From Polytrichum commune (Eukaryota > Streptophyta > Polytrichopsida > Polytrichales > Polytrichaceae), in the NCBI GenBank assembly GCA_950295325.1, contig OX485804.1:8990001-9054000 (forward strand): a DNA stretch of 64,000 nucleotides. The letters run 5' to 3'. This document shows, in pieces, positions 2,191 through 52,540 of the stretch (positions within the stretch are counted from its first letter, which is position 1; every line of letters begins with the position of its first letter). Both the position numbers and the translations under genes were made by a program. Below the pieces are notes generated by a model that searched no databases, was not told the DNA's origin, and was given only the letters and a program-made list of their open reading frames with translations.

Positions 2191-2199
2191 GGTGTATAG

Positions 2200-3264
2200 G
2201 GCACTTGTTGGTGGTATTTTGTAGGTTTATTACTGGTTGTTTGGTTATTACTTTTGACGTGTTTGGTAAGTGATTTTGTTTTGGTTTTTGTTTTAGTTGG
2301 AGTATTATTGAATGTTGTGTTTATATGTATCTTTTGTATGGTATTTAGTATTAGTTTGTAATATTTTATTATAGCTTTGTTGTTGATGAAGTAGTGTTCG
2401 TGATTTGTTTAACTTTTAAGTCGGTCGTTTGGTGATTTTGTATGAGTGTGCATTTGCTTGTGAAAAGTGAGTTAGGTGATATTGGATGGTAGTTGTGTGG
2501 CACATGGAGTTTTGTTGTTAGTTTTGGGTTTTGGGTTTGGTGTTGTTTTTTATATTGGTTTTGGTGTTGGTGGTGGTTTTGATGTTGGTATAGTTGTGGG
2601 TGATGGTGGTTGTATTGATATCTGGTTGGGTATTGGTTTAGATGTTGGTATTGGATTTGGTATTTAGTTTGGTATATGTTTTGGTTTTTGTTTTGGTGTA
2701 GGTACTTGTTTTTGTATTTGATTTGGAGTAGGTATTTGATTTGGTATTGGTATTTGGTTTGGTATTTGGTTTGGTTTTGGTGTTTGATTTGGTATTTTAT
2801 TTGGTATTGGTCTTTGAAAAGATGTAGGTATTTGGGTTGGTATTTGATTTGGTGTTGTTATTTGGTTGGATTTTGGTATTTGATTTGGTATTCGGTTTGG
2901 TATATAGTTGTTTTGGTATATAGTATTAAGGGGTTTTGTTCAAGGGTTGAGATAAATAGTTTAATAAGGTTAGGGGTAAGAATTTTATGCGTTGTGATAT
3001 GTATTGGTTTTATATATTTATGTGTGTGATTAGTTTTCTTTCTATTTTTGGATTTATTGATAAGTGTTTCTTGTTTGAGGGGGGTATTTATAAATACATT
3101 TTTATTTTGTTTTTGTTGGTATCTTTTTGGTATTGAAGTGTTGAGCTTATTTAGTTTATCGTCATTAGGTCTTCCTTGTCGCTTGATGAATCTTCTTTGT
3201 CGAGCATTTCCAAGGAGTCTAAGGCTGCCATGGTTTTGGTGAGGGCTTGTCGGAGTGTAGCCAT
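2200..3264 (-). repeat. A/C-rich inter-ORF linker of LINE copy 1
   Basis: On the minus strand this stretch is nearly free of G and made of degenerate units reading like accaaatacc repeats (plus strand: ggtatttggtttggt). It corresponds to the 2.6-kb Lys/Asn/Thr/Gln-rich linker of the full-length element. The long open frames on the plus strand here, rich in Trp, Tyr and Leu, are artefacts of this composition. No independent gene is seen. Confidence 0.6.
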
Positions 3265-4763
3265 CTATATTTTGAGTCCCCTAGCTGCCTTTTCTGCTGC
3301 GTACGTTGCAAAGTTTTTCGCTTGGCTTGTTAAGCGAGTCTCCATGGTTTGCATTTGATCTCGCACAATAGCGGTTTCTTTGGCCACAGCTTCCTCACTC
3401 ATTTGGTGTATATCTTTCTTTCTTAGTCCATTGGATGGGGCATTTTCCATGGCTTCTACGGTGTTTGCTAACACGGTGTTCATATCATTAAAGCCTAGTC
3501 GTGTAAGCTCCTATCCCGAAGGTTTAGATATTCCATTTAAGCTTTTTGGATGAGGAACAAATTCGACGTATTTATTACATATTTTGTGATTATTTTTTAC
3601 AATTTTTTTATAGACAGCTGCACTTAAGCATTGCACATTGCATACACCAGTGAGTTTGCCTTTGTCATCCGTTTTAAAGAAGATGTTTAAGATGTTTTTC
3701 TCACCCATGCATGCCCTTATTTCGGTTTCAAGGGCCTCTTTAGACTTTAATCTATTTAAATTTTTGGAATGAGGATGAGTGCATTCTTTTTAGCTAAGTC
3801 ATCGCCCAAAGATTTTCCTATCGTAACATCAATGCTTTCATGCCCGAATGTTATTTTGTTCTTTCTTATATTTTCTACTTGTTCCGGGCTAGTTGCAACG
3901 ATCCAAGCAAAGTTGTGACTTTCCCCTTTTCGCACATGGGTAATTTCAAAATTGTGCCCTCTATGAAATCCTTCTTTTACCACTTCATCAAATACTTTGT
4001 ACCATGTCTCATCTTTGATGCTATCAGTGATAATTTTGACTGATAACATCTCGCTTGAGGCAATGGTGTCGTAGGACTTACAAATTTTACCTCTGTGCAA
4101 TTTATTATCCGGGAGCCGGATAATAAATGGCCTAAGTCCTTGAAGCATGGGAATACCGTCTTCTTGTATATTTTTTAAGTGTATTTTAGCGTGTCCCGAC
4201 CATTGCTTGCCTCCATGTGTGCACATTATAGCGATTGGGTCACTTATATCATTACCTAGAGGAATTCTCATTTCATTCAACCTCTTTGTGATGCTTATAA
4301 GTGCTTCCTCTTTGGGAATAATCATCTCATCTAACTCAAAGAATAAAGCTACGTGGTAGTCCATTGCAAAGCCATCACAAGTTTCTATCTCTGAAGGAAT
4401 TTGTGTGTGGTGATAGTTTTGTTTACCTAGGTTATTCATACTAGGCCATAATTCTTGAGGTACATACGGATATGAGACAGCACTATCCTGGCATTCTAAT
4501 GCTTCTCCTTCATACATGCCCATTTTGACTAGCTCACTAACACTCTTATGCTTTTCTTTTGCTAGTTTGTTGCTTGCATTCAAAGCATTCATTGCTTTGA
4601 ATCCAAGCCACAACGGGAGGGATTTTTCTTGTGTGCTAGACCGATTTTTAGTTTTATCCACAATAGTTAGGCATGCATTACTTGATGTCCTTTTTTTTGT
4701 TTGAGTTACTTCCATATCTTTTACCCCATCCAATGACTTTTCAAGACTACGAGCATATGCCAT
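3265..4763 (-). pseudogene. LINE ORF1 (nucleic-acid-binding/gag-like), decayed
   Basis: Homologous along its length to ORF1 at 37798-39975: shared blocks include TQTKKRT near the start, LWLGFKAM, FAMDYHVALFFE, LKGLRPFI/LQGLRPFI, GKICKSYDTIA, GFHRGHNFEITHV, CNVQCLSAAVY and VEFVPHPKSL. The likely start is the ATG at 4763 (MAYARSL), because similarity begins there; the frame is open further up to 5093. It is broken twice: a one-base frameshift near 3760, and an in-frame TAG at 3511-3513, after which homology continues to about 3267. No CCHC knuckle is visible. Function is inferred from position only; I do not recognise a named domain. Confidence 0.75.
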
Positions 4764-6840
4764 TCTGCAAAAGTAAAGTATGTTGTTATTGCATATTTTC
4801 GATGTTTTTTCTTTGCTCCACAACCCATTCCCTTTCCACTTATAAATAAGTGGGCTTTGTAGGGGGGGTATTAGGAAGATGTTATTATTTATGTGTGTGT
4901 GTTGCTTACTATCATTTACAAAATACCATGCAATTTGGTTAGATGTTCCTTTAAATGTAGCTATAGCAGTAAAACATGTTTGTGCATAACATTTCCATAG
5001 AGTGTGAGAGAGGACGATGTGAGAGTTGTTCCAATATAGTGTGGTAATGAGCAACCACATGAGAACAAGGCATGATGCGGTTGCACCCTTCATTTTTTAA
5101 TCTAATCTAACAAACTAACAGTTCTAAGTGCCTATTACTAACAGTCTATCTCCTATCTTTGACAAAGAGTTATTATGTGACTGATTCTACTTCTAGGAAA
5201 CACAAGTGATATGTGCCCAGCTAGTTTATTAGGTATGTATCTAAAAGGAATTTTAGCATAGTTTATGTGTGTGTATTGTATGTGTCTAAGTGTGTGTGAA
5301 ATCTAATGATTAGGTGTGTGCCTATGTGTGTGGAATCTAGTGTTTAATTGAGTGTGTGCATCTAAGTGTCTATCTGTGTGTGATTTGGGGGTGAGATTCT
5401 TACCTGGTAGGCAGCGGTGGTAGCAGACTCGGCAGGTATCAGCAGCTCTCCTTCACAGAATTCTCCTTAATTCTTCTGGCAGCAGGTTTCCTCGGTTTCC
5501 GGGGCAGCACTCTCCTCGGTTGTCTGGGCAACAACTGTCCCTGCTTTCACTGGGCAGCACACTCCACGGTTTGCTGGACAACACTCTACACTGCAGTACT
5601 CTTCTCGGTCTCCTGGGCAACACTCTTCAAGCCTTCTAGGATTTGTTGGCACCAACTCTCCTTAGCTCGTCGGGCAGCTATCTCCTCGATTTCCAGACGG
5701 CTCTCTTCCTCGAATCTCCGGTTGCGAATCACCTCGGCCTTCCTTGTGATGGCTTTTGTTGTCTGTAAGCGGGCAGGGGTATTGGGTCACAATTCTTCCT
5801 CGTAGTGGGTGTGATCTGTTAATTAGATCAGGGATTTCGGCAGTGCTTGCAAACGTTTGGCAGCAGCGTGGTGCTCTGAGTATCTGATGGCAGCAACTAA
5901 TCTGCAATGTTTAATCTAAGAGGGTCGTCTAATGTCGGCAGGAGCTTCCGGCAGAGTTTCGAGGTCTAAATCTCTATCTCCGCGATGTACATACTATCAG
6001 TACGGAGGTCTGTATACTTCGGGGATCTGTTATTTTGACCAGGGATTTCGGCAGTGCTTCTTCTAATGTATGGCAGCAGCGTGGTGCTCTGAGTATCTGT
6101 TGGCAGCAGCTAATTTGCAGTGCTTAATCTAAGGGGACCGTCTAGTGTTGGCAGTAGCTTCCAGCAGGATTTCGAAGTCTAGATATATATCTCCGCCAAG
6201 TACTCACTATCAGTAGGGGGGTCTGTATACTTCGAGGGTCTGTGTTTGTCGGCGGCAGAGATCACAGCGATGTATTCGCTGTTGGTACTGTAAGGGAGGT
6301 CCTAGATCTACTAGAGACTATATGTTTGCACTTTCTAAGATCTGAGATGACTACCGCATCAAAATCTTCGAGGTACAGCAGCGGCAATCTTCGCAGCAAC
6401 AACGATCTTCGTAGCAGCAATCTTCGCGGGAGCAGCAATCTTCTCAGCATCAGCAGTCTTCGCCGCAGCAACAGATGGCGTTGTTGCTAGCGTGTTCAGA
6501 GTAGAGACGTTTTCGGAGTAGAGACCGTGAGATTTGGATGCAACAATGACGCTTTCCAGCAGCAGCAACACTATATGATAGTTTTTTTCGGAGTAGAGAC
6601 GACGAGATCTGGTAGTAGCAGCGGCGTAGCTCTTCCTTGGTAATGTTGCTAGAGGCTTATGGGGAGAGAAGATGAGGTGGTTGCGGGAGCGGGGGGGGGG
6701 CTATATATTATGTGGCGAGTTAGGGTAAGCCGCTACCGGCGCCCTTTCGGGACCTGAGAGGTGGGTGGCCAGGAGAGGAGTTTCGAGGAGCAACGGATAG
6801 CTGCCGCTTCGACTCTAGTTCCCGGGCAAGTAGCACATCA
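4764..6840 (-). other. Leader region of LINE copy 1
   Basis: No coding potential. Next to ORF1 (about 5100-5400) the sequence is rich in TGTGTG-type stretches. From 5400 to 6650 it is rich in GGCAGCAG and TTCGGAG words with tandem monomers (5826-6247). The open frames here (for example 5467-5655 and 6242-6490, rich in Glu/Cys or Ser/Asn/Arg) reflect the trinucleotide-like repeats. The region probably holds the element's promoter and 5' UTR. Confidence 0.5.
5826..6247 (-). repeat. Two tandem 211-bp monomers in the LINE 5' leader
   Basis: Copy one starts at 5826 and copy two at 6037, each beginning ga(t/c)cagggatttcggcag and containing ggcagcagcgtggtgctctg, gcttaatctaag and tgtatacttcg in the same order. 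They lie upstream of ORF1 on the element's sense strand, as promoter monomers do in some mammalian L1 families. Promoter activity is inference. Confidence 0.7.
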
Positions 6841-19100: not shown

Positions 19101-19842
19101 ACACTAAATGGGATATTTAGTGTTGGATACGCCAAATACGAACACATACACTAAACATCAATAACACTATGAAAGTAAGTAATATTAAATGTAAACTCAA
19201 ACATTAAATATCAACTATGGCAATATCTGGAAGTTACATGTTTGAGTTTAGTGTTAGTAAGGATATGAGAAAAGGGGATATAATAAGGGAGGTGGCAATA
19301 GGGAAGATAGCGGCACATTTATTTATGTCTAATATTAATTGTCAGGGAATTGTCAGGGGCCAGAGCCACAACTCACATACCCTCGATGAATGAACTTGAA
19401 ACAAAGCTTAAACTCCCTACATCACAAATTAGGAGCACATTCAAACAAATTAATATAATCGCCATACAATACACACACTCGATATTAATCCATAAAAGAC
19501 GGATAGAAAATAGACAACCCATCACAGACTTACAAAATCATAATTAAAAACAACAATAAAAATAAAAATCTATGAACCCAACACACTTCCCCCCCCCCCC
19601 CCTAACCGGTTAACCGGCAAAATCACTAGTTACTAACATAGTGCCTACTCCCTGCAAAGGGTGAAGTAGTATTACATCCAACGCCACTACCTTGGGGTAT
19701 GGCCACGGATGTCCTACGAACAGGCACTTTATTCACTCCGGCCCCCTAGGCGGGACCGGATTTCTTCTTCTTCTGTCAGGGAATTGAAAATTAATGTTGA
19801 GCAGGGTAGGGTGGTAACAACACTAGATATCTTATTTAGTGT
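19101..19842. mobile_element. MITE family A, copy 2, with nested LINE fragment
   Basis: Begins with the same palindromic end (19101-19123) and ends at 19820-19842 with its inverted counterpart (ACACTAGATA…TTATTTAGTGT). Without the inserted 434 bp it is about 308 bp, close to copy 3. The LINE tail at 19353-19773 lies inside it. A target duplication is not evident. Confidence 0.7.
19353..19773 (+). mobile_element. 5'-truncated Dualen-like LINE insertion (3' end)
   Basis: Flanked by a perfect 13-bp target duplication tgtcagggaattg (19340-19352, 19774-19786). It encodes the last ~60 residues of the ORF2 C-terminus (GARATTHIPSMNELE, FKQINIIAIQYTHSILIHKRRIENRQ), then a 3' UTR with a C-run and the conserved tail hairpin (19738-19759), ending in TTC repeats. 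The empty site is visible in the paralogous MITE at about 22990. Confidence 0.9.
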
Positions 19843-20312: not shown

Positions 20313-20855
20313 TTCACACACATATACTCCTTGTCATTATGCTTACCTTAATTAATATGCTTTTTTTTCAATCTAATGTAGGGTGTTGTCTAGTTCAACA
20401 CAAAATAATAATTTTGATCTTCTTCTTTTTTACCACGTGTTTATCCACATTGGTTAAGCCATGCCAATTCCATTTGCAAGTTAGCTTAAGGCACTCAAAG
20501 TGTTTAACCAAACATTATTATACATTTTCCAAATGATACTCACTTGCATATAATTTCTCCACGATTCCCACAAGATTGTGACTAATGAGGTTATCTCGAG
20601 ATTTTAGTGTACACTAGACCTGCCAAGGGCGGGATTGCGGTGGAAAACCCTCCCCTCCCAAGTTAAACCTGATTGAGTTACTAGACTTAATCTTATTTAA
20701 GGCCCGGTCATTCAACACACAAAATCAAAATCAAAATCAAGGTATATGATGTTTGTATAGGGTTTCCACTCTTCCTCTTGGTAGGCATCAAGAAACTTTA
20801 TGAGTGAAACACATCATTTGATGCAAAAAGTATGTCCCAAATGAGTGAGCAATAT

Positions 20856-20930
20856 AGGTCTAGGGGTGGAACGAACAGACACTTCATTCACGTCGGTCCC
20901 CTACCGGAGACCGAAGTTTCTCCTCCTCCT
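20856..20930 (+). mobile_element. 75-bp LINE-tail insertion
   Basis: Only the last ~75 bp of the LINE 3' end (gaacgaacagacacttcatt, hairpin at 20893-20914, CTC-repeat terminus), flanked by a 20-bp direct repeat starting cccaaatgagtga (20836-20855, 20931-20950; one mismatch). It is either an extreme 5' truncation or a tiny SINE using the LINE machinery. Confidence 0.8.
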
Positions 20931-23679: not shown

Positions 23680-24640
23680 CCCAATGACATGTGTTTTAAG
23701 ATCCGATTTATAAGAACCCTAAAACCTAAACCCTTATTGGCTCAATACATCAGTAACCACAGGGAACATATCTTCTGGCCCCTCACACACCAAAATCCCA
23801 ACTGCACACTATCCCATGAAAATGATAGAGACACATGGCCACACCTCCTTTCAACATGTGAAAACCCATATCTAAAAGTATTAAGAATTGCACGACACAA
23901 TAAAGTGGTACACCTTATCACTTAAACACTCCAAGCCAATAGAACCACCAGGTTCTTTACACAAGCCAATACATGAATAATTAACAATAAATCACCCAAC
24001 CAAACAATCCCAGATTGGTGACTTAAATGCACGTGCCCACAAACACAATGCAGATGTCATGCCAAACTTAGACTAAACATCCTATGCATAATCGGAGCCC
24101 CAAACCAAACACAAACACCTATGACACCCTCCCCCACACGCACAATCCAACTCATAGAATTCACGTACTGCCATGACAGATTCCCTGAACAGACCCTCAT
24201 GCACAAACATACCAAATATGATCCATTTATTAACACCGTACAAAACCAATGGGTGGAAGACCAAACCCATCATTACCATCATAGCATGAGTTAGAGGAGC
24301 CATACATGAACACTCTATAGATAAGGTGACCAAACTAAAAATCCCTAAAACCAACATCAAAACCCTAATGAAAACCCTACACCAAAACGCCATCAAGTAT
24401 CTCACATACCTAGTCCTCAACAAAAGAAAACTAGACAACAAACAAACACATGTCCCCCCCCCCACCCTAAAGAAAAAGGGAAAACTATTAAACCATTAGA
24501 GCCCACCTCCTAAAGGAGGCAAAACTCCTTATGTTGCATCACGGAACATTGTAATTAGCACAAGGCCGACGGGCTCACATTCATGCATGTACCTTGATAT
24601 AGGTGTATTATTTTATTTTATTTTATTTTTGTGGACTATA
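23680..24640 (+). pseudogene. Decayed Dualen-like LINE fragment: C-terminus of ORF2 and 3' tail
   Basis: Across stops and frameshifts the translation follows the end of the full-length ORF2: a knuckle-like stretch (RDTWPHLLSTC, ARHNKVV), then CTCPQTQCRCHAK, QLIEFTYCHDRFPEQ, HTKYDPFI and, further on, LKIPKTNIKTL…NAIKYLTYLVLNKRKLDNKQ. The PD of the nuclease motif has changed (LNILC). The 3' part ends near a TTTTA repeat (about 24605-24632). Target duplications were not found. It is more diverged than the copies at 35981 and 19353. Confidence 0.75.
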
Positions 24641-35968: not shown

Positions 35969-35980
35969 TAGATTTTGAGG
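35969..35980 (+). repeat. Target-site duplication, left copy
   Basis: tagattttgagg, repeated exactly at 50513-50524. It defines the insertion of the 14.5-kb LINE. Confidence 0.9.
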
Positions 35981-37797
35981 GGTCGGGGACGAAGGGACTT
36001 GGAGATGAGGAGAGAGCTCTGAGAGCCGCTCGAAGGGCTGGAGGAAGCAACGGTAACGTACAATCTGTAAGCATGCTGTGAGCAAAATCTTCTGCGCTCC
36101 GGGTGAACCCAATGCCGCAAGTTTAGATCCACACACACGCTCACAGATCACAAACACTCGAAGAAACAGCTTGGGGAAATTACAACAGGGGAACGCTGGA
36201 GAAGTAGATCGGTATCATCGGAGTAGGGATCGCCGAAGAGGCAGATCCCCGGAGACCGCCTTCGGAGTACTGGAGTACTGGGGGACGATGCCCGCTACCG
36301 ATCCCGGAAGACAGCAGGAAGCACCGAGAGAGCCGACAGGTTGGAGGTCAACTCAAATCGAGGACGTCATCAGGGGACCGTCGCCGAATGCTGGAGGACA
36401 TCGCAGATCTGAGAGAACCCTATAGACCAAGATTAGTTGTGATAAAGTGCCGATTGCTAACGAAGTGGAGTGTTGTGTGAACTTGCAGGGAGGATCGCGC
36501 AGTCAGCGTGGTGACCCAGTAAGACTCATCGCTTCCCCCCCACTCCGATATCACACTCAATTGATCGCTATAGTGCTCCCCCGCAGATCCCAGATTCCCC
36601 CCACATTGCTCGGTCCGTTGGATAGCGCCCGAAGCCGTCCCCTCATATACAGACCTGATCTGCTGGAGAGGCTTCCGAAGTCATCTCCTCCATCGTCGAC
36701 TCTGTCTGCTAGGAGGCCTCCGAAGATTGACTGCCATCGATTTGGCCTGGTGATCAGCTCTCGAAACTACCTGAAGCGTCGAAGGCCTTCAGAGTTGTTC
36801 CTCCACCATCGAAGCTGTCTACTCGGAGGCACCCGCAATCCTGCTGTCTACCAACTTGAGCTCTGGTAAGCATTCACAATCGTTTTCACCGTGACTCTGT
36901 CTACTGGGAGGTCTTTGAAGTCTTGTTGCGAAGCTTGCATTGCCACAGACCTTCAAAGATATGCTACCCGTCGATTGGGTTTACTGGAAACCTTCGTAGC
37001 TGCTCCCTCTACCATTGACTCTGTCGGTTGTAAGGCCGCCGAAATCCTGTTGTGCAAACGTATACTGCCCTAGGCAGTAGTTACAGAGCGGAAAGGGATT
37101 CCAGTACGCTCCATAGAGCGTTGCTTATCTCTTTGGAACGACTACCGTTCGCGAAGCCTACATCAACACTCCGCACACTGCACTGATGACCCCATGACTG
37201 CTTGGGCCACATCCAAGCATGAAGGGTGATTCCGATATGCCAAGATAAACCCCAGCAGAGGTACGCAAGCCAACCCAGCTCTCTTGTTGTAAGGTGGTAA
37301 TGCAGATTCAAGCTAACGGATCTAAAGTCCAAACTGAGCATGCTGGGGGACTTGTGGTGTGGTAGTGAAACACAACCTCAGATCCGTAACTTGGAAATGC
37401 ATGAACACCTAACAAACAAGATATGCTAAGCTTGCACACACCCCGCCCAAGCAAGGAAGTGTACCAAACATCGACTTAGACAGGTGTGTTGATCCCGGAG
37501 TTGCAATCCAAGTAGCCCATAACTAAGCGAGCTGAAGGGACTTGGACTGAGTGGTTGGCAGTCCAAGAGGATATGCAATAGCCGGGCTTCACACTAATCA
37601 AGGTTGGCTTTGAGTACACTAACTTTGCTTCTTCGAGTGACATACGGCCAGAGCTCAGCCGCCCATCATAGCGCCTCACTAATCAAACACCGTCAACAAC
37701 TTTACAGTAGCAGCGCAGCACCAACTTCAAAATTCGCACCAACAACAGCCTAAAGGTAACTCACCTAACAAAGGTACGCTACTCCCCTCTCCAAAAA
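35981..37797 (+). other. 5' UTR of the full-length LINE
   Basis: GC-richer than the rest of the element, with no consistent reading frame. Between about 36690 and 37060 a loose repeat recurs four times: (c/t)gactctgtct…ggagg(c/t)ct…cgaag, roughly every 80-125 bp. It probably contains the internal promoter. No sequence match to the leader of copy 1 was seen. Confidence 0.55.
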
Positions 37798-39975
37798 ATG
37801 TTTATCCATTTTGTTTTGCTTTCAATAGATAGGAAAACAAATGTTATAACAAAAACAAACCATGCAACTACTCACATAACTCACAAACTCCTCTACTACA
37901 AAGCCCCACTACACGCGTCAGTGGGAGGTAGAGGAACAAAACCAAAACAAACAAATAGCATCACTAAACTAAACAAGGCATTATGTTCAAACCTCTACAC
38001 TAAACCAATCAACCCCAAACTAGTAACCAAAACTAATACCATAACCTGCATAAATAAAATGACAAAACAAGGCAACCAAACAAATAAAAGCTTTAATCTC
38101 CTCTACAAAGCCCAATTGCACGCGCAAAAAGGAGGAGGAGACAAAAGCACTAACCTAAAAACCCACCAAAACACTAACAATTATTGTGTTCAACAGATGG
38201 CAAACAGAGGCAAAGCAGTACATGACGCCATCATGAGAAGCCCCACTGATACCAACATGGAAGACACAGAAGACACAATGATGATAGAGACTACTCAAAC
38301 CAAGAGGACACAAGAAGCAAAGAAAGGAAGCAGCTCAAGCAAACGGAAGAAGAATACAGAGCTTACAACCGGATTGAAAGACACACCGAAAGACTTCTGG
38401 CTTGGGATCGTGGCTATGGAGAAGCTCGCTATTGATGAAGGGGTAAAACCCAAAGATTGTAGGCCATCAATGAAGAAAGAAGACCTCATCGAAATGGGCA
38501 TATCTGAAGGAGAAGCTGAGGAGATGAGCCAAACCTTCAAAATCGCATTTCCACATGTGAAGCAACTACTCTACCCACTAGAGAGGCCGGATGGGAAAGG
38601 TGGGCAACATTTCAACTTAACCCAATTACCCATTGAAACAGAAGTCGATCCAGGCACTGGACTTTCCTTCGATTACCACATAGCTGTTTATTTTGAAAGA
38701 CCATCAACAGACTATACTCATAATGAGATACTCACCATGACAACAGCTAGACTAGCATGTATGAGCATAGAAATGGGGATAGGACTTGCGGAACCCATTT
38801 ACATTCCATGCAAAGAGAAAGAGAAAAACAACAAAATCAAGTTCTGGATGGGGACCATTAAGATTCATCTCAAACATCCTAAAGTTGATGGAGTTGGCAT
38901 GCTTAAGGGGCTACGCCCTTTTATCTTGACACTAGACAAAACCCAAACGCTAGGAAAAATTTGCAAATGCTATGATTCAATAGCCAGAAACACTTTGCTT
39001 TCTACAAAAATCGAGAACCCCAAGCTACACCTCATCTCCTCTAGTGAGCTACAGAGAGATGTTCTAATTGAGAGTTTCAGACGTGGATATGACTATGAGA
39101 TTGCTAGCGTGCAAAAGGTCAAAGAAGAAACATGGGGATGGCTCATCTCAACCACGCCAACACAAGCAAACATAATCATTCAATACCTTGTTCCATACAA
39201 ACAAGAACTCATGCATGTAATCACACCACAAGCAGCCAAAGCAGAGAGAAGGAGCCGCGGAGAAGGACTCACAGAAGACGAAATCAAGAAGAAGAATGCC
39301 ACCATGTTGTGCCTCTATGGTCTTCACAAAATGAAGAAAATAGAAGATACAAAGGACTCCATCAAAGCAGTTCTAGGAGGGTTAAATGTAGCATCTTTTT
39401 ACTTTCCAGGGCAAGTAGGTGACCTTCACAAAGGCACGGCCAATGTACAATGCCTCAACGCCATTGTCTATAGACAATGGGTAGGCAAGACAGTAGAAAT
39501 CTTTGGCAAACATGTGAGCTTTACGCCCCACCCAAAAAGCTTACAAGGAGCAATACCACCCACCAAGGAGGAACAAGAAAAACTTGGTTTTTGTGACATA
39601 TCCACAGCAATTGCGGATACACTTGAGGCAACTCGCAATGCACCACAAAACAAAGGGAAAAGTACGATGATCACACATGACGACCTTGATGCATTAGTTG
39701 AAACCGCCATGGACAAAAGGAATGGACAACTCATAATCGAGCTCAAAACAGAACTCACAGCAGAATTACACAAGGAAATGGGAGACTTCAAAAAAGAGGT
39801 GTCCTTAGAAGCAGACGTACGAGAAGAAAGAATCACTCGAAACCTGACAACACATGTCAAACTACAACTGGCGGAAATCAGAAAACAACTAGCACTCACA
39901 TCACAAGCGGTTAACATGACAACAAAAGCGCTAGACTCCATCCTAGCCCCAACACAACCACAATTGGAAAACTAG
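37798..39975 (+). CDS. LINE ORF1 protein (up to 725 aa)
   Basis: Uninterrupted frame. The ATG at 37798 gives 725 aa, but similarity to the ORF1 of copy 1 starts at the ATG at 38197 (MANRGKAVHDAI, 592 aa), which is the likelier start. Upstream codons encode a duplicated LLY(Y)KA.LHA motif about 207 bp apart. After a basic patch (SSSSKRKK) comes a domain conserved in both copies (FWLGIVAMEKL, FDYHIAVYFE, LKGLRPFI, GKICKCYDSIA, FRRGYDYEIA, ANVQCLNAIVY, FTPHPKSLQG). The last ~150 residues look helical and charged, perhaps a coiled coil. No CCHC knuckle or RRM is obvious. By analogy with other LINEs it should bind the element RNA; that is inference. Confidence 0.8.
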   Translation: MFIHFVLLSIDRKTNVITKTNHATTHITHKLLYYKAPLHASVGGRGTKPKQTNSITKLNKALCSNLYTKPINPKLVTKTNTITCINKMTKQGNQTNKSFNLLYKAQLHAQKGGGDKSTNLKTHQNTNNYCVQQMANRGKAVHDAIMRSPTDTNMEDTEDTMMIETTQTKRTQEAKKGSSSSKRKKNTELTTGLKDTPKDFWLGIVAMEKLAIDEGVKPKDCRPSMKKEDLIEMGISEGEAEEMSQTFKIAFPHVKQLLYPLERPDGKGGQHFNLTQLPIETEVDPGTGLSFDYHIAVYFERPSTDYTHNEILTMTTARLACMSIEMGIGLAEPIYIPCKEKEKNNKIKFWMGTIKIHLKHPKVDGVGMLKGLRPFILTLDKTQTLGKICKCYDSIARNTLLSTKIENPKLHLISSSELQRDVLIESFRRGYDYEIASVQKVKEETWGWLISTTPTQANIIIQYLVPYKQELMHVITPQAAKAERRSRGEGLTEDEIKKKNATMLCLYGLHKMKKIEDTKDSIKAVLGGLNVASFYFPGQVGDLHKGTANVQCLNAIVYRQWVGKTVEIFGKHVSFTPHPKSLQGAIPPTKEEQEKLGFCDISTAIADTLEATRNAPQNKGKSTMITHDDLDALVETAMDKRNGQLIIELKTELTAELHKEMGDFKKEVSLEADVREERITRNLTTHVKLQLAEIRKQLALTSQAVNMTTKALDSILAPTQPQLEN

Positions 39976-42629
39976 ATTGGAAAAACAACCACATAGCTTA
40001 CCCACAAAAAATGTGTACCTACACAAAAAAACAAGAAAAGAAAAGAAGGAGAGGAAAAAGACAAGAAGACAATCCAATAGCATATGGAAATGCTATCAAT
40101 AAAGAAACAAACCAAATAAAAACAAATAAAACCAAAGCATTCATAAATGCTTTCACACAAATACATAAACCGAAACAACAACAAAAACAAAAACAAAACA
40201 TACCAAACCAACCAAAAACAACAAATAAAACCAAAGTATTCCTAAATGCTCTCACACAAATACATAAACTAAAACAACAACAAAAACATCAACATCAACT
40301 TAAACAAAACACACCAAATCAACCAAAAACAACAAATAAAACCAAACCATTCCTAAATGCATTCATACACAAATTAAAACATAAACAAAAACATAAACAT
40401 CAACAAAAACAAAGCATACCAAATCAACCAAAAAAAAAAGAACCAACCAAAAAAAATACACCCTAATATATACAAAACCAAAGCAACAAACCAACCCAAT
40501 TCAATAAAACCCACTCTACATACAAAAATATACAAAATGATAACTACCAAACACCAAAACATACAACAAAAGAAAATTAGGAAGAACTTACACAAAACAA
40601 AACGGGCTCGGCCAACCGGCCTTGCCAAAGAACAAAGTAAATATAAACATAAAAACTCAAAAACCACAAATACACAAAACACAAACCTAAGCAAAACAAT
40701 ACCCAAACAAAGAAGTACCAAAAGTATAATAAAAAATCATAATAATCATAATAAAAAAGATATAGCATGCATACTTAAAACATATGCAATCAACACAACC
40801 ATAAAAACAAAACACACAACTAAACACAAAAGGACAAACACCTCAACTCCCTATAACACACACCAAACAAAGAAACAAAGAAACCTCAAAAATATAATAA
40901 AAAACAAAAACCTAAAACGAGCCCGACCCACTGACCTCACCCACAACCAAAACAAACACAAGAATAGGCTCAAACAATGCACAAACTCAAACAAACTCAA
41001 ACCCAAAAATAATAAAGAACACACACAACATAAGCGAAAAAAACCCCACCCCAAAACATACCCACCACACCTACTAATTATACTATATGGAAACACTGTT
41101 GTTCAAACATTAACACAACAAAAAAGCAAAATAGACATACCAAAAACAAGCCTAATAAACCTAAAGCAAACCCCAAATAACAATAAAAAGGAAACACTTT
41201 TTAATATCTTCACACAAACAAAACAAAAAATGAATCAATACAAAATGTATAACCCAAAGCATCAAAACAACAAAAAAAACCCCAAAACATCTAAACAAAC
41301 ACAAACACACAAAACCATAAAAGACAATAAAGAAAAAACCCCTCATAATGCCCTCACACAAATGAAAATCAAAACAACACACAAAACCACAAAGTTAAAC
41401 AAACACAAACCCAAAAAACTCCGTAAAAAAGAAAAAAACATAACAAAAAAATACCCTCTCAAAACTACAAATGCACACAAAGAAGTGAAACCATACATAA
41501 CACGAAGAAAAAAACAACAAACAAGCACACCTAACACAACCTATACTACTTTAATAAACCATACAAACAAACATACAAACCCTAGCACCATCACACTACC
41601 TTCAAAAATTACCTCACAACATCATAACAAAAACACACAAAAATATCAAACACAAAAAACAAACAAAAACCACCTAAAACGGGCTCGGCCTACCGGCCTC
41701 GCCCAAAACAAAGTAACCAAAATAAAAAAATAAAAAAATAGAAAACACCAATACATAAACACACATATCAACAAACAAATACATCAAAGAAACACAAAAT
41801 ACCCAAGTCATATAACAAACCTAAACTCTACAAAAAATCATAACAACAACAAACAACGAAACCCAAACCAAAAGAAACAAGAAAATCCTCCAATAAACCA
41901 AACACCCTCCCTACACCTACTACCAACACTTAATGGAGACACTAAAACCTCACAAAAAGAAACAAACCTAAACCTTACAAACAAATACAAGGAAAAGATA
42001 AACATAAAGAAACCACGCCCCGGAGAGCTAAAAGCACACACAAAAAACCAAAATCATACAAAATACAAAAGATAATAAGAAAAAAAAAAAAAACTTACCT
42101 AAATACACCACCCTCATCAAACAACCAACCAAACATGTGCAGAAAAACAACCCTATAAAAACACCAAAACTTCCTACTCTAACCTTATACCTCATAATAT
42201 TACTCAGTGCTAAAATAAACACACAACAAAAAAACAACAAAGATAGGCCAAAAGAAAGCTCACCCAAACCCAAACAACAAAAAATTACAAATACAACATC
42301 CCACAATACTTCCACACAAACGAAGCCAACAACAAAACAAAATAAGAGCGACAACCCAAAACAAAACAACAACGGCTCAAAAAACCCTAAAAATACACAA
42401 ACGCCCAACATCAAAAACAATAATAATAATAAAGACAAAACATTTCTTAATACCTTGGACCAAACAAAACAAAAAACAAAAAACAAAAAACAAAACAAAA
42501 TGTAAAACCTCAACAAGCATAAACCTTACAAACAAACACAAGAAAAAAATAAACATAACCAAAAAACGCCTCCGGAAAGCTAAAAACACATACGAAAGAC
42601 CAAAAACATACAAAACAAAAAAGACAATA
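39976..42629 (+). repeat. Inter-ORF linker with tandem and nested repeats
   Basis: Almost G-free A/C-rich DNA. Near 40121-40430 a unit encoding TNKTK.F.NA.TQIHK…QN.PNQPK occurs three times in frame (starts 40121, 40220, 40331; 33 and 37 codons apart). A GC-rich block encoding KRARPTGLA recurs at 40604, about 40919 and 41681, and once more at 42763. Segment 41681-41965 matches 42763-43015 (offset about 1.08 kb), including a degenerate 2A-like copy at 41911-41949. Segment about 41943-42090 also resembles 42498-42640. Frames 40011-40466, 40537-41733 and 42137-42505 cover parts of it; whether they are translated is open. Confidence 0.65.
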
Positions 42630-45600
42630 ATGAAACAAACAAACACACCCTGCACCACTCCAAAAACAACAAAACACAACATCACCACACTCCTCTCAAA
42701 GAAGTCTCCAAAACACCAAAACAAAAAAATACAACATACAATCCATAAAAACCACTCAAAACGGGCTCAGCCTACCGGCCTCGCCCAAAACCAAATAAAC
42801 AAAATCAGAAAAAGAAACCAATACAAAACCAAACATACAAAACAAACACAAACAAGAACCACTAAACATCCAAGTCACATAACAAATATAGACCCTAAAA
42901 TAATAAATAAAAACAAACAACGGTACACAACCTACAAAAAATGAAAAAATCCTCTCTTAACCCAAGAATCCTTCTTACACCTACTATTATTACTTAGCGG
43001 AGACATTGAAACCAATCCGGGACCCATGCCTAATATCCTAAAGACACACCCACCCACACATAGAAATAGATGCAAAAGGTACTTTATAGAATGCACAATC
43101 AAATTACAACCCGAATACCAACACTTAGCAACACAATTCTCTCCTATCATAAATTTAACACATCCAAAACACCAAGACACAATTGTAGCTTATCCATACC
43201 TATCAAGATACATCTATAAAAATCAACACCACGCACCCCCACGCATATTATACGCACTTATTACCAAAATTAGCCCAATAATAGAAACATGCAATCATAT
43301 ACTAATACAAACCCCAGAACCAGACTGGACAACAACAGTTCTAGAACGTATGACCACACTCCAAAATCCACCTGAAAGACACATCATAACCACGCACCCA
43401 TACACACAATTCCTACAAACAAATAAAGACATTATCAACCCACCCAACACCATTCACAAAGAACTATATAACTTCATCAAACAAAGTAATGAACCACTAA
43501 CCATACAGATAATGACAGACAAATTCCCTTTTTTATCAGAAAAATTACTTACAGAATCATTAAAATGCAAAGAGCCACTGCATGAATACTCCCACCCCCC
43601 ACCACTACCCATCATACCCACAATACACCCACAAGAAAACCAAACAACAAACCACAACACACACATAATCACATGGAACGCTTCATCACTAAGCACAGCC
43701 CTATCAAACCTCCACAAACTTATATCAAATACAACAAACAACCCTGCAATTATCACTATACAAGAAACCAAATTAACCGCAACAAAATCCACAAAGTACA
43801 TACAAAATCTATTTCCACAATATAAACTAATATTTAACAATACGCATACATTGACAAGATGTATACAACAAAGAATGCCATATACACCTGCAAGAGGCGG
43901 ACTCCTTACACTCATAAATAAAATATACGCATACCCCGGCAACATTAACAAAATCCCCACCCCAGCTGCAATATCACCATACCTACAAATAATAGAAATC
44001 AACAACCAACCTCTACAACCATGGTTAATAATACACATATATATGCCATCACACGAAGAAGATATACGATTTATACCAATAATACAACAAAATATAACAC
44101 AACAAACCACTAATCACCCAAACCATATACACATTCTATGCGGAGACTTTAACAGAGACATAGCCCTAATTGGACGTCAAAACGAATATAGTACAACACC
44201 ACCACAAGTAGAAGATATAGAATGGAATACATTCATGAACAACCTTCAACTCACATACATCTCCACGAACAGCTCATACTCTAGATAGGGTGGTCAGAAT
44301 TATAACCAAACCAGCTTAATAGATGGATACTACATCCGAACACCCAACAATGCCCTATACACATCAACCATAAATAATGACCACAATCTCAACTCAGACC
44401 ACTCCCCAGTAACACTGCATATACCATCAAATACACTACTAGCACGTTGTATGCCGTCAATAATAGATAAACCCATAAGGATATTAAACCCTATCCCACA
44501 GGTAAACATTGAAAAATTCAAAACAGAATTTTTGGAAGAAAATGCACTCCAGATAAATGAACTTACAAACACACTAAGAAATGACCAAATAACAAACGAT
44601 CAATGACAATCATCTTGCACAACACTAGACCACCTAATACAACAGATTTCTGACAAAATCCAAAACACGTGCAGTGCACAACCTCTCCCAGATCTCACAA
44701 ATCGTACATCACAACAAGGAGGCTTTCTACCAAGAAAACTCCAAAAAAAATGGAAAAATTATCTCTCCACCTATCACCTAATCAGGAAAGCAATTTACCT
44801 TATAAAGAACTCACCAAACTGGCCAACACAACCAATAATAGAAGAGCTAAAAAATCACACCCAAATGGTCATCCCCACCCCCCCCCCCCCCAAATCAAGA
44901 ACCCAATCAACAAGAATGGATCAAAATAGTAGTCCAAATAGCCAAAACCGCAAATATACATGCTCGAAAAATTACCACAAAATACACCCAAGAATGTGTC
45001 AAAAAAACAATATCCAAATATAGGCAATTATATGAAAAAAATCCAAAGAAAATTAACAAAAGAGTCTTCAAAAACCAAGAAACACCCCCACTTGACTGCA
45101 TTACAGACGAATACAACAATATACTTACAAACCCAGTAGATATAGCCAATGAAATTCACAAACAACAATCAATCAGTAATAGACCCATAGTACCAACATG
45201 TTATCACCAACCAGAACACACACCACACTGTACTTGCGGAGTAAGACAATACCCATGGCATGACCTTGACGGATTCGTCCTCGACAAAAGAGGGAACCCA
45301 CAAATTCCACTACATGAATACTTTGACAAAGAAACATATGACATTTGCCTTAAAAACCTAGCAAACAACAAAACACCTGGCCCTGATAAAATTCCTAATA
45401 TAATTCTAAAAAATATGCCCGAAAGCTTCCATACACTACTTTTTCTATTCTTCTCTCACTGTTACAAACAAAAACAAATTCCTACATCATGGAAAATAAG
45501 TTTAACCATACTTTTATATAAAAAAGGAGACCCCTCAAAATTAGCAAACCATAGACCAATAGCACTCGCAAACATAATATACAAATTTTTTACGAGTACT

Positions 45601-48600
45601 CTAACATTCATACTGTTAGCATACGGGGAAAAACACCAAATCTTACACGACAGTCAAGAAGGATTCAGAGCAGAAAGAAACACGTCCAGACAACTTCAAC
45701 TCCTCATAGCAGCACTAGAAGACGCAAGATTTACAAACCAAGACATATATCTACTATATATAGACTTCAAGAACGCCTTCGGCTCTCTTGATCATGCAAG
45801 GTTATTAGCAATAACGAAAGACTTAGGGTACCCAGAAGACGCTGTGAATCTAATAGGAAACATTTATTCAAACTCCAATACCATATTCACCGGCGAACAC
45901 TTCGGAAAGACAAAACCTATACCAATACAACGAGGTACAATACAAGGCGACACACTCAGCCCATACCTCTTTCTGATATTCCTAGAACCCCTACTAAGAT
46001 GGCTACAAAAAGGGAAAAATGGATACACATTTGGTACATCCAAACTAACAATTAGCTCGGCAGCATACGTAGATGATCTAGCAGCTATCACAAACAACCT
46101 CCAATCAATACAAACTCAACTAAACAAATTGGACAAATACTGTGATTGGGCCGGAATGGACTTGGGAGTGCCAAAATGTGCCATCACAGGATGCCCAAAT
46201 AAATCAAAAACAAAACATGAAACATTCAAAGCCAAAATCCAAGCCCAAAGCATCACCTACAGAAATCAACCACTACCTATCTTACACCAAAACGAACCCT
46301 ACGTATATTTAGGCATACAGCTAGTACCTTCACTAAAATGGAAGCTCCAAACACACATCACTTTAGCCAAATTAATAGACCAATGCAAACAATTAACAAA
46401 CTGTCCAGCTACACTCAAACAGAAAATAAGCATGGTGGATACCGTCATCAGAGCCGGTATAGCCTATAGCTTCTACGCAGTCCCATATTCATTACCAACC
46501 ATCAAGAAACTAGACAAAAAAATCATTGAAATCCAAAAAGTAATCTGCGGTTTTCCCAAATGCACAGCAAACATAATAACCCAACTACCACACGACCTAT
46601 TTGGACTAGAAGCCTTCTCACTAAAAAATGCCTACCTAAGATGTATTAGTGAACAACTTAGAAACGCATTAAATGATCCAGGAAGATTAGGAATAATTTA
46701 TAAAGGACTCATACAACATATACTAGCCAAACACGGAGGGGCAGAGGACATACAAAGAATCAAATACCAAGATTGCATCAGATCCCCTACGACACGGACA
46801 CTATTTCTGATGAAAAAGGAAGGCGGGGCTCACCTCAAAAGCATAGAAGCAAACTTCCAGCTACATATGACAGAACTAAAACAAGAATGGAGAACACAAG
46901 CCACAGCTGTACTACCCCAGCTAAACACCGAATTATCCAGGAAATTACTCCACAAACTCTTAACTCACAACATACAAAAGGTACAACACATCTCTCTCCC
47001 CAATGGCACACACTTAATGTCACCAAAAGACTTTCAAAATTATTATAAAACACCAACAAAATTAGAAAAAAACGCACTACATATAGCGGAACAACTTTTC
47101 TGTCACCAAAGTTGTAACCAAAACTGCCCAAACCCATGTAATAGACACCCACAAGCCCGCACACTCAAAGCAAAATATATATCAGACAACAGAGAACTAA
47201 CATCCAGAATACAAGAATATCCCTTACACCCACCACTACCACAACAACCCCAACAACCCAATCCACCCCCTAACATAAAAAACAACCCACTTAGATTCCC
47301 CATACACATTATACGAAACCACAAATCAAACGAAACAAAAGATAAGTATAAAATAACAAAAAAATACAACACATACCTATGCCAATGGTCACTCCAAAAC
47401 AACACAATATACAACAAATGGCTACCACAATGTGAACTCTTCCCATTGAACCAACCCCTAGTAATTAAACACAACATTAAATTACTAAAAGAATATTATA
47501 CTAGACAGCAATACAATTACTATAATAACATCGTAAATACACATCTAGCCCCCACACAAGCCAAAGACCCAAGATTCATACCACCACCTACGATAATACC
47601 ACACACCCAAATATCAGTAATAGAATGCAACCCAGAAAAAGACATTGTCACCTTAGAAAATACTATACATATACAAAACGAACTAACACATATATATGAA
47701 GACACCGGGAGACACCTCATCACCATCCCAACCACCAGACTAAAATGGCTATGGCAACAATACAACAAAGACAGAAACAACACACACGATCTAGTGCCTC
47801 CCCCACAATCATTTGAAACAGAAATAGTATGGCTCTACCAAAGATATCACTCTAAAAAACCGAAAAAATACCCACTAAACACATCATAATACACTCTCCC
47901 ACAAAATCTCCTTGATTCCATCACAGAAACATTCAACATCTCACATTCATACTTCTCCTCACCAGTAACATGTTCTACACATATCACAAAATTCTACTCC
48001 CCATTTGCAAGAGACAAAGTGTTTGGATCACTAGGCACCGCCTTCCAATACAAATGGAACGGAATTGGGTATGCCCATCCACATAATGAAGAAATGACCC
48101 AACAAGTAATACACTGGGCAAGATTAGCAGCTAAACATGACCCAAACACCATCACACTACTAGTCACACCGGACGTTAATTGGTACGAAAACTACTCACC
48201 ACACACCGGACCATTTCCCGACACACATGTTCTAACCCATTTCACTGCAGATACCATCACATACGATGAACCAACAAACCCCCAAAACATAAACAAACCT
48301 CGGATAGAACCATTAGCAATACACATCTTTTGCATCCACCACCAAAACCACAACATAGGCACACATAACCAAATAGCTACAATTAAAACAACAATAGAAA
48401 ATCTACAAATAGCACAATACCACATACAAAAGGCTCCACCCACACCCCACAACACACCGGTAAACAAAAACGCTAAATGGAATAAAGTACTCTACCCACC
48501 TCATATCAACCTGTCAACCACAAACACACCACCGTTACCAAACTACGAAATAAACGCTACATTAAAATTCCCACCACAATACAGCTACTACACAGATGGT

Positions 48601-50040
48601 TCGTTTATCCCACCCATAAAAGATAACGACGGACATTGGAAAAAAAAAAAAACTGGCTACGGAATTTACAACCCAACAAAAGCAGAAATACGTATATCAA
48701 AAAGACTGCCTGGCCTACAAACCAGCTTTAGGGCCGAACTAATGGCCATACATAAAACACTCAGATTAATTACTACCAAATACACAAATGAACCAGCACA
48801 CATATTCACAGACTGCCTCAATTGTCTATATGTACTTAACACACAAATAAAACACCCTACCCACCATAACAACCATGCTGACAAAACCATATTAACATCT
48901 ATGGTAGAAATGCTAAAAATCCGAACACAACCTACTACAATATATAAGGTAAAAGCACACACAAACATTGACGGGAATGAACAAGCAGACCAGTTAGCAA
49001 AACAAGGCACTAAAAAAAGATATAGATTCGCTGCCAAAGCATACGAATTCGCACACACTACACCATACTACTTCCAAAAAGACACATGGCCTGGACCAAA
49101 TAAACGACCTGACAAGGGCCCTGTCAGATGCCTTGAAACATATATCACTAAACATGACAGAGATAACAACCTAAAAACCATGGCTGAACAATTCCCCAAC
49201 ATTAGCAAATGGACAATGAACCCTGATATAGATAATGAAATATCCAACAATTTTTGGTCTAACCTTGCAATATCAGATTCACAAAAAACATGCATACTAA
49301 AATTCCGAACCGGACAATACATGGGCAATGCTAGAAAACAACTATTTTTTGGCATAGAAAGATTCCCATCTATCACATGCCCAATCTGCAACTCCTCAGA
49401 TGCAGATACATGGCTACACGTATTGTTAAAATGCAACCAACACCACATACACGCCCTAAGAACCAAAAGACATAACAAAGCAGTATGGGAACTAAGAAAA
49501 CTAATTCTATCATCACAAAAATCAATATGTTACATCCTCATGAATGCAGGGACATTCAACAACAATCCACAAGAGAATACAATCCCCGCATGGCTCCTAC
49601 CATGTACATGTGAACAACAAAGATGCCACTGCAATGCACGATTCAAACCCGACCTCCTGTGTATTAAAGAACTCCCACATCAAAGTACCCCACCGCCACA
49701 CCCAACAGACAACCTCACGGTACAATTTATTGAATTCACATACACAAATGACAGATTCCCACACGATACAATTAACAATAAAATTCAAAAATATCAACCA
49801 CTAATTAATGACATCAGTCAGCATGGATGGAAAATAGATCCACTTATAATCATTACGGCTGGAGCTAGAGGAACCACGCACACCCCGTCAATGAACCAAC
49901 TTGAACAAACATTTAAACTACCTGAAAATTTTGTAAAACATACATTTAAAGAAATAAACACTATTGCCATACAATATGCTAGTTCAATCCTTCTACATAA
50001 AAGACGTATTGAAAACAACCAAGCAATACCAATAGAATAA
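42630..50040 (+). pseudogene. LINE ORF2: 2A - AP endonuclease - RT - RNase H - CCHC - restriction-like endonuclease
   Basis: Frames 42630-44288, 45415-47889 and 48019-50040 are successive parts of one protein. AP endonuclease: TWNAS (Asn218 counted from Met 43026), IQETK (Glu247), CGDFN (Asp374), then NSDHSPV past a TAG. Reverse transcriptase: YIDFKNAF (Asp117 counted from 45415), GDTLSPYLF, YVDD at 218-221, YLGIQL. RNase H, counted from 48019: YTDGSF Asp193, Glu240, Asp265, His314 and Asp324, a complete active site. CPIC…HVLLKC at 454 is CX2CX9HX4C. Then CTC…CHC, KPD at 543-545, QFIEFTY (Glu572), and NKIQKYQPLI at 587: the PD…E…K..KY pattern of R2-type restriction-like endonucleases. It nicks target DNA and copies the RNA there in related elements. 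Breaks: TGA 42942, TAG 44286, TGA 44604, frameshift at C-run 44878-44891, TAA 47887. Confidence 0.85.
42999..43025 (+). other. 2A-like ribosome-skipping motif (GDIETNPGP)
   Basis: Codons read LHLLLLLSGDIETNPGP (from 42975), with Met 43026 next. The consensus is complete and the upstream Leu-rich stretch fits the helical region of 2A peptides. It separates a Lys-rich linker from the endonuclease, so skipping would release the enzyme with an N-terminal Pro. In this copy a TGA at 42942 cuts the frame upstream and no ATG lies between it and the motif. Confidence 0.85.
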
Positions 50041-50159
50041 GAGAAGGGGTCATAATGATGACCATTATTTATTGAACAATATATACACCGATAGCTCAGG
50101 AAGATGGGTAGGAGCCGGTTGGTTGATACAATTTTCCTGCCTATAAATCACTAGCAGCA

Positions 50160-50275
50160 CCAAGTCATGTATAAACACACTAAACGATCAGACAGATCCA
50201 ACGGGAATCGAACCCGGACCGGCTAAAGTGTAGTACAAACATCCTCCCTCGACCAACCGAGGAAACATGACTTGG
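50160..50275 (-). other. tRNA-like block in the LINE 3' UTR
   Basis: On the minus strand 50261-50248 gives a D-arm-like hairpin (CTCGGTTGGTCGAG) and 50218-50201 a T-arm-like GGGTTCGATTCCCG at roughly tRNA spacing, resembling internal A and B boxes. A 10-bp inverted repeat CCAAGTCATG/CATGACTTGG (50160-50169, 50266-50275) encloses it. No acceptor stem pairs properly, so it is not a functional tRNA gene. Confidence 0.55.
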
Positions 50276-50473
50276 CGACCTCCAACAAAATAAATCACAA
50301 CTTATACTATACACAAACGCACCTACTTGCTAACAACTACAATGGGTTACTCTTATTTATCTTTTGGTCACTATAGTGCCCATCCTCGAAAGGGGAGAGT
50401 AGTACTGTCCAAATTTCCCCCTGTCTGGCGGGCATCGGGTCATTTGACAGAACGAACAGACACTTCATTCACG

Positions 50474-50512
50474 CCGGCCCCTAATTGGGACCGGAGTTTC
50501 TATCTATCTATC
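50474..50512 (+). other. Conserved 3' terminal hairpin and TATC tail of the LINE
   Basis: CCGG-C-CCC, loop taatt, GGG-A-CCGG (50474-50494), then gagtttc and TATC repeats up to the target duplication. Counterparts at 19738-19759 and 20893-20914 keep the stem. It is probably the RNA end recognised by the reverse transcriptase. Confidence 0.7.
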
Positions 50513-50524
50513 TAGATTTTGAGG
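50513..50524 (+). repeat. Target-site duplication, right copy
   Basis: tagattttgagg, identical to 35969-35980. Confidence 0.9.
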
Positions 50525-52068: not shown

Positions 52069-52540
52069 CCGCGTCACTGAGGCGCGGATTAGGGAGCCGG
52101 GCCTGTGGGCGGCTCCCACAATCTGAGCCGCTCACTTGCTAACATTCATCCAACGGTTGAAAAAATCCTAGGTGGCGACTCATGGTCGGGCACGGGTCCC
52201 AAACGCGGGCGGGCATGCAAGGTCTGGCACGGGTCCCGGAACGCAACTCCCCATTAACTGTGGTCCAAATTAATTGATGTCAATTAATTCTAATGCCTCT
52301 CCTCACTTGACATCAATTAATTTGGACATCAATTAATTTGGACCGCAGTTAATGGGGAGCTGCGTTCCGGGACCCGTGCCGGACCTTGCATGCCTGCCCG
52401 CGTTTGGGACCCGTGCCCGACCATGAGTGCCCGCCACCTAGGATTTTTTCAACCGTTGGATGAATGTTAGCAAGTGAGCGGCTCAGATTGTGGGAGCCGC
52501 CCACAGGCCCGGCTCCCTAATCCGCGCCTCAGTGACGCGG
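52069..52540. mobile_element. Foldback Mutator-like MITE, 472 bp
   Basis: Arms of about 210 bp (52069-52278 and 52331-52540) are near-perfect inverted copies starting CCGCGTCACTGAGGCGCGG, with a short AT-rich centre. A perfect 9-bp duplication atatataaa flanks it (52060-52068, 52541-52549), the length typical of Mutator-like insertion. The arms are much more GC-rich than the surroundings. Nothing is encoded. Confidence 0.88.

Follow-up and report, generated by a model that had tools for sequence, protein, structure and literature searches.

The locus analysed here raises the question of whether a LINE residing in a plant genome carries two target-cutting enzymes, an AP-type endonuclease and an R2-type restriction-like endonuclease, in one protein, and to which group such an element belongs. 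The best explanation, drawn from sequence and predicted structure, is that the element described below as copy A, full-length though inactivated, very probably belongs to a plant lineage of Dualen/RandI-type LINEs. All positions refer to the window, i.e. the whole 64-kb stretch of DNA that was analysed.

Extent and organization of copy A

Copy A occupies 14,532 bp on the plus strand (35981..50512), an extent given by two flanking duplications together with composition and gene order. The 12-bp direct repeat TAGATTTTGAGG is found at 35969-35980 and 50513-50524 (+), and a 12-nt match appeared in 0 of 300 shuffles in which both 160-nt end windows were shuffled; the insertion with target duplication proposed by the first-pass annotation is borne out. 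The same annotation placed the element at 43026..50040. The ORF2 features named for that span are all present in the sequence, whereas its limits take in no more than the 3' half; the true extent, ORF1, the 2A motif, the PCIF1-like domain and the further copies were absent from it.

The order of the parts, by sequence and predicted structure, runs from ORF1, linker and 2A through AP endonuclease, reverse transcriptase (RT), PCIF1-like domain and RNase H to zinc knuckle, R2-type nuclease, 3' stem-loop, short-repeat tail and target duplication. A 5' leader with a higher G+C content than the rest (35981..38196, +), whose end is set by the ORF1 start chosen, precedes the intact ORF1 of 592 residues (38197..39975, +; counted from the chosen ATG, the start being uncertain as the frame is open from 37711). 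No Pfam family above the cut-off and no NCBIfam family was assigned to ORF1; among the best 7990 candidates scored it has at least 62 relatives, at least 51 of them with an identity of at least 80%. The following A/C-rich linker of about 3 kb (39976..42944, +) contains degenerate tandem repeats and decayed 2A-like stretches.

Pfam recognizes Exo_endo_phos, RVT_1 and RNase_H in ORF2, in that order. After the 2A/StopGo motif at its head (42999..43025, +), ORF2 comprises, all on the plus strand, the AP-type endonuclease with the motifs TWNAS, IQETK, GDFN and SDH (43650..44456, interrupted by TAG 44286), the RT (45529..46320, YVDD at 46066, RVT_1 E 1.6e-25), a module predicted to fold as three strands and a long helix (47287..47649), and the PCIF1-like cap-methyltransferase domain (47653..48399), which is interrupted by TAA 47887 and in which NPPF is replaced (GYAHPHN at 48067-48087). 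The RNase H (48565..49026) with a complete D-E-D-D site is succeeded by the zinc knuckle and R2-type restriction-like endonuclease (49174..50025; PD 49648-49653, E 49732-49734, K in NKIQKYQ). The 3' untranslated region (50041..50500, +), with a terminal stem-loop at 50471-50497 and a terminus also found in copies C and D, leads into a (TATC)3 tail (50501..50512, +).

The occurrence of 2A/StopGo in AP-endonuclease-type LINEs of multicellular organisms was reportedly the subject of Odon et al. 2013, judging by the title as cited in PMC12846837. Copy A shares with such LINEs a DxExNPGP-type motif near the ORF2 start and differs in being a dual-nuclease LINE in a plant. Both GDIETNPGP of copy A and CGDIELNPGP of copy B fit the core motif (D/G/C/N)(V/I)ExNPGP given in an excerpt from PMC12846837, and ribosome skipping would take place at this site. 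A close form occurs in 4 of 207 proteins (P0091 GDIQPNPGP, P0092 GDIEPNPGP, P0100 GIEPNPGP and Haematococcus P0150 GDVEANPGP), many of the others being partial and possibly stopping short of the site, while P0195 and P0201 possess NPGP without the DxE part. In P0100 two 2A-like motifs, NPGE and then NPGP, are arranged in tandem in the N-terminal part of the protein.

Within the linker, a GC-rich motif, CGGGCTCGGCC(T/A)ACCGGCCT.GCC, is repeated in four variously decayed copies upstream of ORF2 (40600-42790; at 40600, 40915, 41677 and 42759, +). A similar stretch precedes the 2A of copy B, where it is in frame with the 2A; in the relative P0092 the motif apparently stands in another reading frame. 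A linker coding for a polyprotein with several 2A units was considered and is rejected for now: codon-position counts revealed no consistent coding bias, leaning to silent changes only in comparisons with the 40915 unit.

Related copies, decay and 3' ends

Copy B (1..6830, -; the upper end is a guess) belongs to a related element that runs off the window edge, so that only its 5' part is seen. Its ORF1 matches (3211-4715, -), 2A (near 1880, -) and AP endonuclease (578-1894, -) give the order ORF1, linker, 2A, AP endonuclease, as in copy A, and it contains stops too. The 5'-truncated copy C (19353..19773, +) ends in a (TTC)n tail and is flanked by a clean 13-bp duplication, TGTCAGGGAATTG. Copy D (20869..20930, +) is a 3' end of only about 60 bp with a (CTC)n tail, flanked by the 13-bp repeat CCCAAATGAGTGA (20836-20848 and 20931-20943, +), of which the left one is separated from the copy by about 20 unexplained nucleotides. 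Copy E (23740..24455, +) is the 3' part of an older relative, with 35% identity in the nuclease region.

None of these five copies is intact. Copy A is a dead copy with three stops (TAG 44286, TGA 44604, TAA 47887) and one frame change near a poly-C tract (about 44877-44891), all in ORF2. Compared across 428 AP-endonuclease codons, copies A and B differ with pN 0.245 and pS 0.746. With synonymous sites saturated, this ratio can serve only as a sign of strong purifying selection, which the sequence comparison indicates for the divergence between the two copies. An in-frame stop falls at the same AP-endonuclease residue in both (TAG 44286, +, in A; TAA 575-577, -, in B). The same residue is encoded at 62% of the aligned codons of A and B, and the shared stop position is probably a coincidence. 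Programmed readthrough at TAG 44286 was rejected: the site is a sense codon in the relatives P0088, P0091 and P0092, which makes two independent decays the simpler account.

The terminus GAACAG[AG]CACTT[CT]ATTCAC with its stem-loop is common to copies A, C and D. A stem-loop is predicted in all three of these in-window termini, and in copy D both partners of one base pair are altered; though few, the three sequences would fit a 3' recognition signal for the RT. The tails are short repeats other than poly-A, (TATC)3, (TTC)n and (CTC)n, respectively, as they are for RandI in an excerpt from PMC3747384. The repeat unit differs from copy to copy after the same terminus (A 50501, C 19765, D 20921), as though every insertion event determined it afresh. 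ARAGORN identified no tRNA in the 3' region, and Rfam gave no match there at the gathering threshold (two weak ones, E 0.6 and 1); the region's fold has a weak z-score of -2.48, with 2 of 100 shuffles equally good. The 3' region of copy A also has an antisense tRNA-like stretch (50195-50275, -) that ARAGORN did not call, with GGGTTCGATTCCCG resembling a B-box and TGGTCGAGGGAGG resembling an A-box. Soon after the element lies a near-perfect inverted repeat (52069-52540) with 109-nt arms that are 100% complementary and inner 111-nt arms at 94%.

Placement of the reverse transcriptase

Dualen/RandI LINEs of green algae were reportedly described by Kojima and Fujiwara in 2005, a paper cited in PMC3636483 and PMC4640811. 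Copy A shares with them the AP endonuclease and R2-type nuclease in one protein, the RNase H, the short-repeat 3' tail, an RT nested with green-algal proteins, and relatives of which some carry OTU or Josephin protease domains. It is unlike them in its plant host, 14.5-kb length, separate large ORF1, long repeat-rich linker and 2A motif; a PCIF1-like domain has no mention in the portions of the Dualen descriptions found. R2 elements have one ORF, no AP endonuclease and no RNase H, and insert in rDNA. With R2 (9nl2, 9nl3, 8gh6), the nearest solved RT (E 9e-33), copy A has in common the C-terminal zinc knuckle, the nuclease fold and their order; unlike R2, it possesses an AP endonuclease and ORF1, copies A, C and D sit in unrelated DNA, and Rfam found no rRNA in the window. 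Plant L1 elements likewise have two ORFs, an AP endonuclease, an RT and often RNase H, and differ in lacking an R2-type nuclease and in their poly-A tail (an excerpt from PMC9033089).

In phmmer searches the RT core scored 335.8 bits against a Parachlorella protein, 119.8 against R2 and 76.2 against L1. The FastTree analysis comprised 115 of 124 sequences, nine with an aligned stretch of at most 300 residues having been dropped. The window RT groups with P0088-P0090 (support 1.0) within a 97-tip clade (local support 0.998) that includes all nine Haematococcus tips, Parachlorella and Pleodorina and leaves R2 and L1 outside, the references being R2 and a single, human L1. Support is low (0.425) where the 112 non-reference tips as a whole are set apart from R2. 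Two Haematococcus proteins of the clade, P0152 and P0155, have both an AP endonuclease (by Pfam) and an R2-type domain (by profile), so that the dual state exists in a named green alga. By the yardstick of these algal proteins, two of them with both nucleases, rather than of curated Dualen entries, the RT sequence groups with Dualen/RandI.

The dual-nuclease reading of the first-pass annotation is upheld by domains, RT clade and the predicted C-terminal nuclease fold. Neither of the two outcomes that it named as refuting was observed: the tree puts the RT outside L1, as far as one human L1 can represent that group, and the C-terminus is predicted to adopt the nuclease fold. Its suggestion of a poorly known plant lineage is supported too. 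Land-plant LINEs are given as L1 and RTE only in an excerpt from the review PMC9033089. In available parts of other sources, Dualen/RandI is placed under green algae only (survey PMC4438587), in Chlamydomonas relatives (PMC8226300) and, as LINE/Dualen, in cryptophytes too (PMC12747079). Among the matches listed from open-licence PMC papers, searches combining Dualen/RandI with fern, gymnosperm, moss, conifer or Selaginella returned no report of such an element. As for the plant genes said to lie nearby, the kinase exon (11442-12293, -) matches plant RLCK-VII kinases (PBL2 E 4e-34, BIK1 E 1e-33) far better than animal IRAK4 (5e-11), and an MCM exon is present in the window; these exons would fit a land plant and may fit a streptophyte alga too. 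Viral and prokaryote collections yielded no relatives after 9 and 15 pattern matches, respectively. The relative P0011, a piece of the LINE family annotated as a Candidatus Nitrosocosmicus MAG protein, is probably a contamination of that MAG.

Two other accounts of the locus have to be weighed against a Dualen/RandI-type element. RNase H is found in plant L1 as well (excerpts from PMC4640811 and PMC9033089), which would suit a conventional L1 or RTE LINE of plants with nothing more than a resemblance to the R2 nuclease at its C-terminus; this is contradicted for L1 by the RT tree and can be given hardly any credence. The 14.5 kb might also comprise two separate insertions, an ORF1-bearing element beside an ORF2-bearing one, in keeping with the repeat-rich 3-kb linker between the two frames. 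That arrangement is very improbable in view of the single 12-bp duplication bracketing both ORFs, the order of ORF1, linker, 2A and ORF2 in copy B, and the listing of the ORF1 relative P0265 and the ORF2 relative P0049 with one and the same longest contig (245,084 bases).

Two nucleases, the PCIF1-like domain and a proposed mechanism

The AP endonuclease upstream of the RT is recognized by its four motifs and by PF03372 (E 6.1e-6, 26.6 bits, cut-off 24.5), and an R2-type endonuclease is located at the C-terminus of the same protein. A crude AP-endonuclease motif pattern was discarded, since it detected no more than 7 of 120 relatives, overlooking the Pfam-marked Haematococcus P0152 and P0155. 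The RNase H (PF00075 E 7.6e-15) has a full active site. In alignment A2 (73 rows hand-picked from the matches, 50 of them near rows including the window), its D/E/D/D residues are kept in 34/39, 41/42, 43/45 and 41/43 near rows and in 23/23 far rows each. For the R2-type nuclease, the counts are P 23/23, D 21/23 and E 20/22 in near rows and P 21/22, D 22/22 and E 20/21 in far rows. The lysine of NKIQKYQ is present in 20/20 near rows and 1/20 far rows (mostly Q), and an earlier lysine column in 20/20 and 9/20, respectively, so that both are candidates for the catalytic lysine. The R2-type fold of the C-terminus is predicted in a model built from the alignment (pLDDT 87.2; a single-sequence prediction of 47890-50037 reached 33.7).

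The core fold of the PCIF1/CAPAM methyltransferase is found in the predicted structure. The domain shares this fold, over about 230-290 aligned residues, with the cap-adenosine methyltransferase PCIF1/CAPAM (6irv, 6irx) and giant-virus PCIF1-like proteins, and differs from PCIF1/CAPAM in having HPHN for the catalytic NPPF and in being fused within a LINE protein. The flanking motifs FSSPxxC and FGSxG are conserved, and the seven relatives in which at least half of model residues 151-402 are covered show 50-65% identity with the window there. The plant-only profile A3 reaches PCIF1 at only E 0.11. By profile, only P0163 among 12 named-alga proteins has the domain, which therefore does not define the group. 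AHPH is common to 24 of 53 aligned rows and [DN]PP[FYW] occurs in 0 of 71 relatives' segments; the column-based NPPF count passes over inserted letters, and rereading of unaligned segments revealed a PP pair at the motif place in about a dozen relatives. Far relatives have SPPF (P0111), HPPF (P0142) and LPPY (P0177) at the catalytic place, and the domains of P0111 and P0142 may possibly be still active enzymes within LINE proteins.

A chromodomain ahead of the PCIF1-like domain (47287-47649), suggested by eye and by the strand-strand-strand-helix layout, was rejected, as none of 17 relatives has one according to Pfam; the VIA-align rows hardly cover this module. Other members possess OTU-like (below cut-off), Josephin, PHD-finger or DNA-methylase (PF00145) domains (P0093, P0155, P0110, P0141), indicating that the clade gains accessory domains often.

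What the two nucleases and the PCIF1-like domain do can be read in more than one way. Most likely the two nicks are shared between the two nucleases. Duplications of 12-13 bp without a shared target sequence resemble those of AP-endonuclease LINEs. Such duplications, with no evident common target at copies A, C and D, and the far relatives without a clear catalytic lysine would agree with an AP endonuclease making both cuts and an R2-type domain reduced to a DNA binder, a vestigial nuclease; given how little its P, D and E residues vary in either near or far rows, this is a minority reading, unlikely yet worth keeping in view. The reverse assignment, cutting by the R2-type nuclease beside a vestigial AP endonuclease, would accord with R2 being the closest solved structure for both RT and C-terminus, and is distinctly improbable given that the AP-endonuclease motifs are retained in copies A and B, stops aside, and that pN is far below pS in this region. 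For the PCIF1-like domain, the preserved fold and flanking motifs, along with the near-catalytic sequences of some far relatives, speak for an adenine methyltransferase with an altered motif, still marking the RNA (or DNA) of the element. The PP pairs in about a dozen relatives raise the odds of such activity, which nevertheless seems improbable beside HPHN in the window and the AHPH and [DN]PP[FYW] counts. In this lineage the domain, which has kept the fold and exchanged NPPF for HPHN, most likely acts as a non-catalytic RNA binder, perhaps binding the capped 5' end.

In the proposed mechanism, capped element RNA would give the ORF1 protein and, through ribosome skipping at the 2A, a free ORF2 protein. 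One nuclease would nick the first target strand, and the RT would begin at the 3' stem-loop and copy the RNA by target-primed reverse transcription; this start would also give rise to the short-repeat tail. The RNA would then be removed by RNase H, and the second strand cut by a nuclease, yielding the duplication of 12-13 bp.

A plant-resident dual-nuclease LINE, with five copies or pieces in 64 kb, widens the range of Dualen/RandI and offers a system for asking why one element retains two target-cutting enzymes. Among the matches listed from open-licence PMC papers, no report combining a PCIF1 domain with LINEs or transposons was found, and within that scope it would extend the accessory domains of LINEs by a new type and provide a way to test whether a LINE protein recognizes the 5' end of its own RNA. 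According to an excerpt from PMC12846837, evidence that plant viruses naturally use StopGo is lacking; the 2A of this element is a candidate for natural use within a plant genome. A broader picture can be offered only tentatively, and may well prove wrong: plants would hold a separate lineage of giant dual-nuclease LINEs that has persisted for long and uses a natural 2A skip in a plant genome; its ancestors would have captured a PCIF1-type cap methyltransferase, which was disarmed in the plant lineage and which selection preserved to read the capped RNA end, so that the RT protein would hold the full-length message by both ends.
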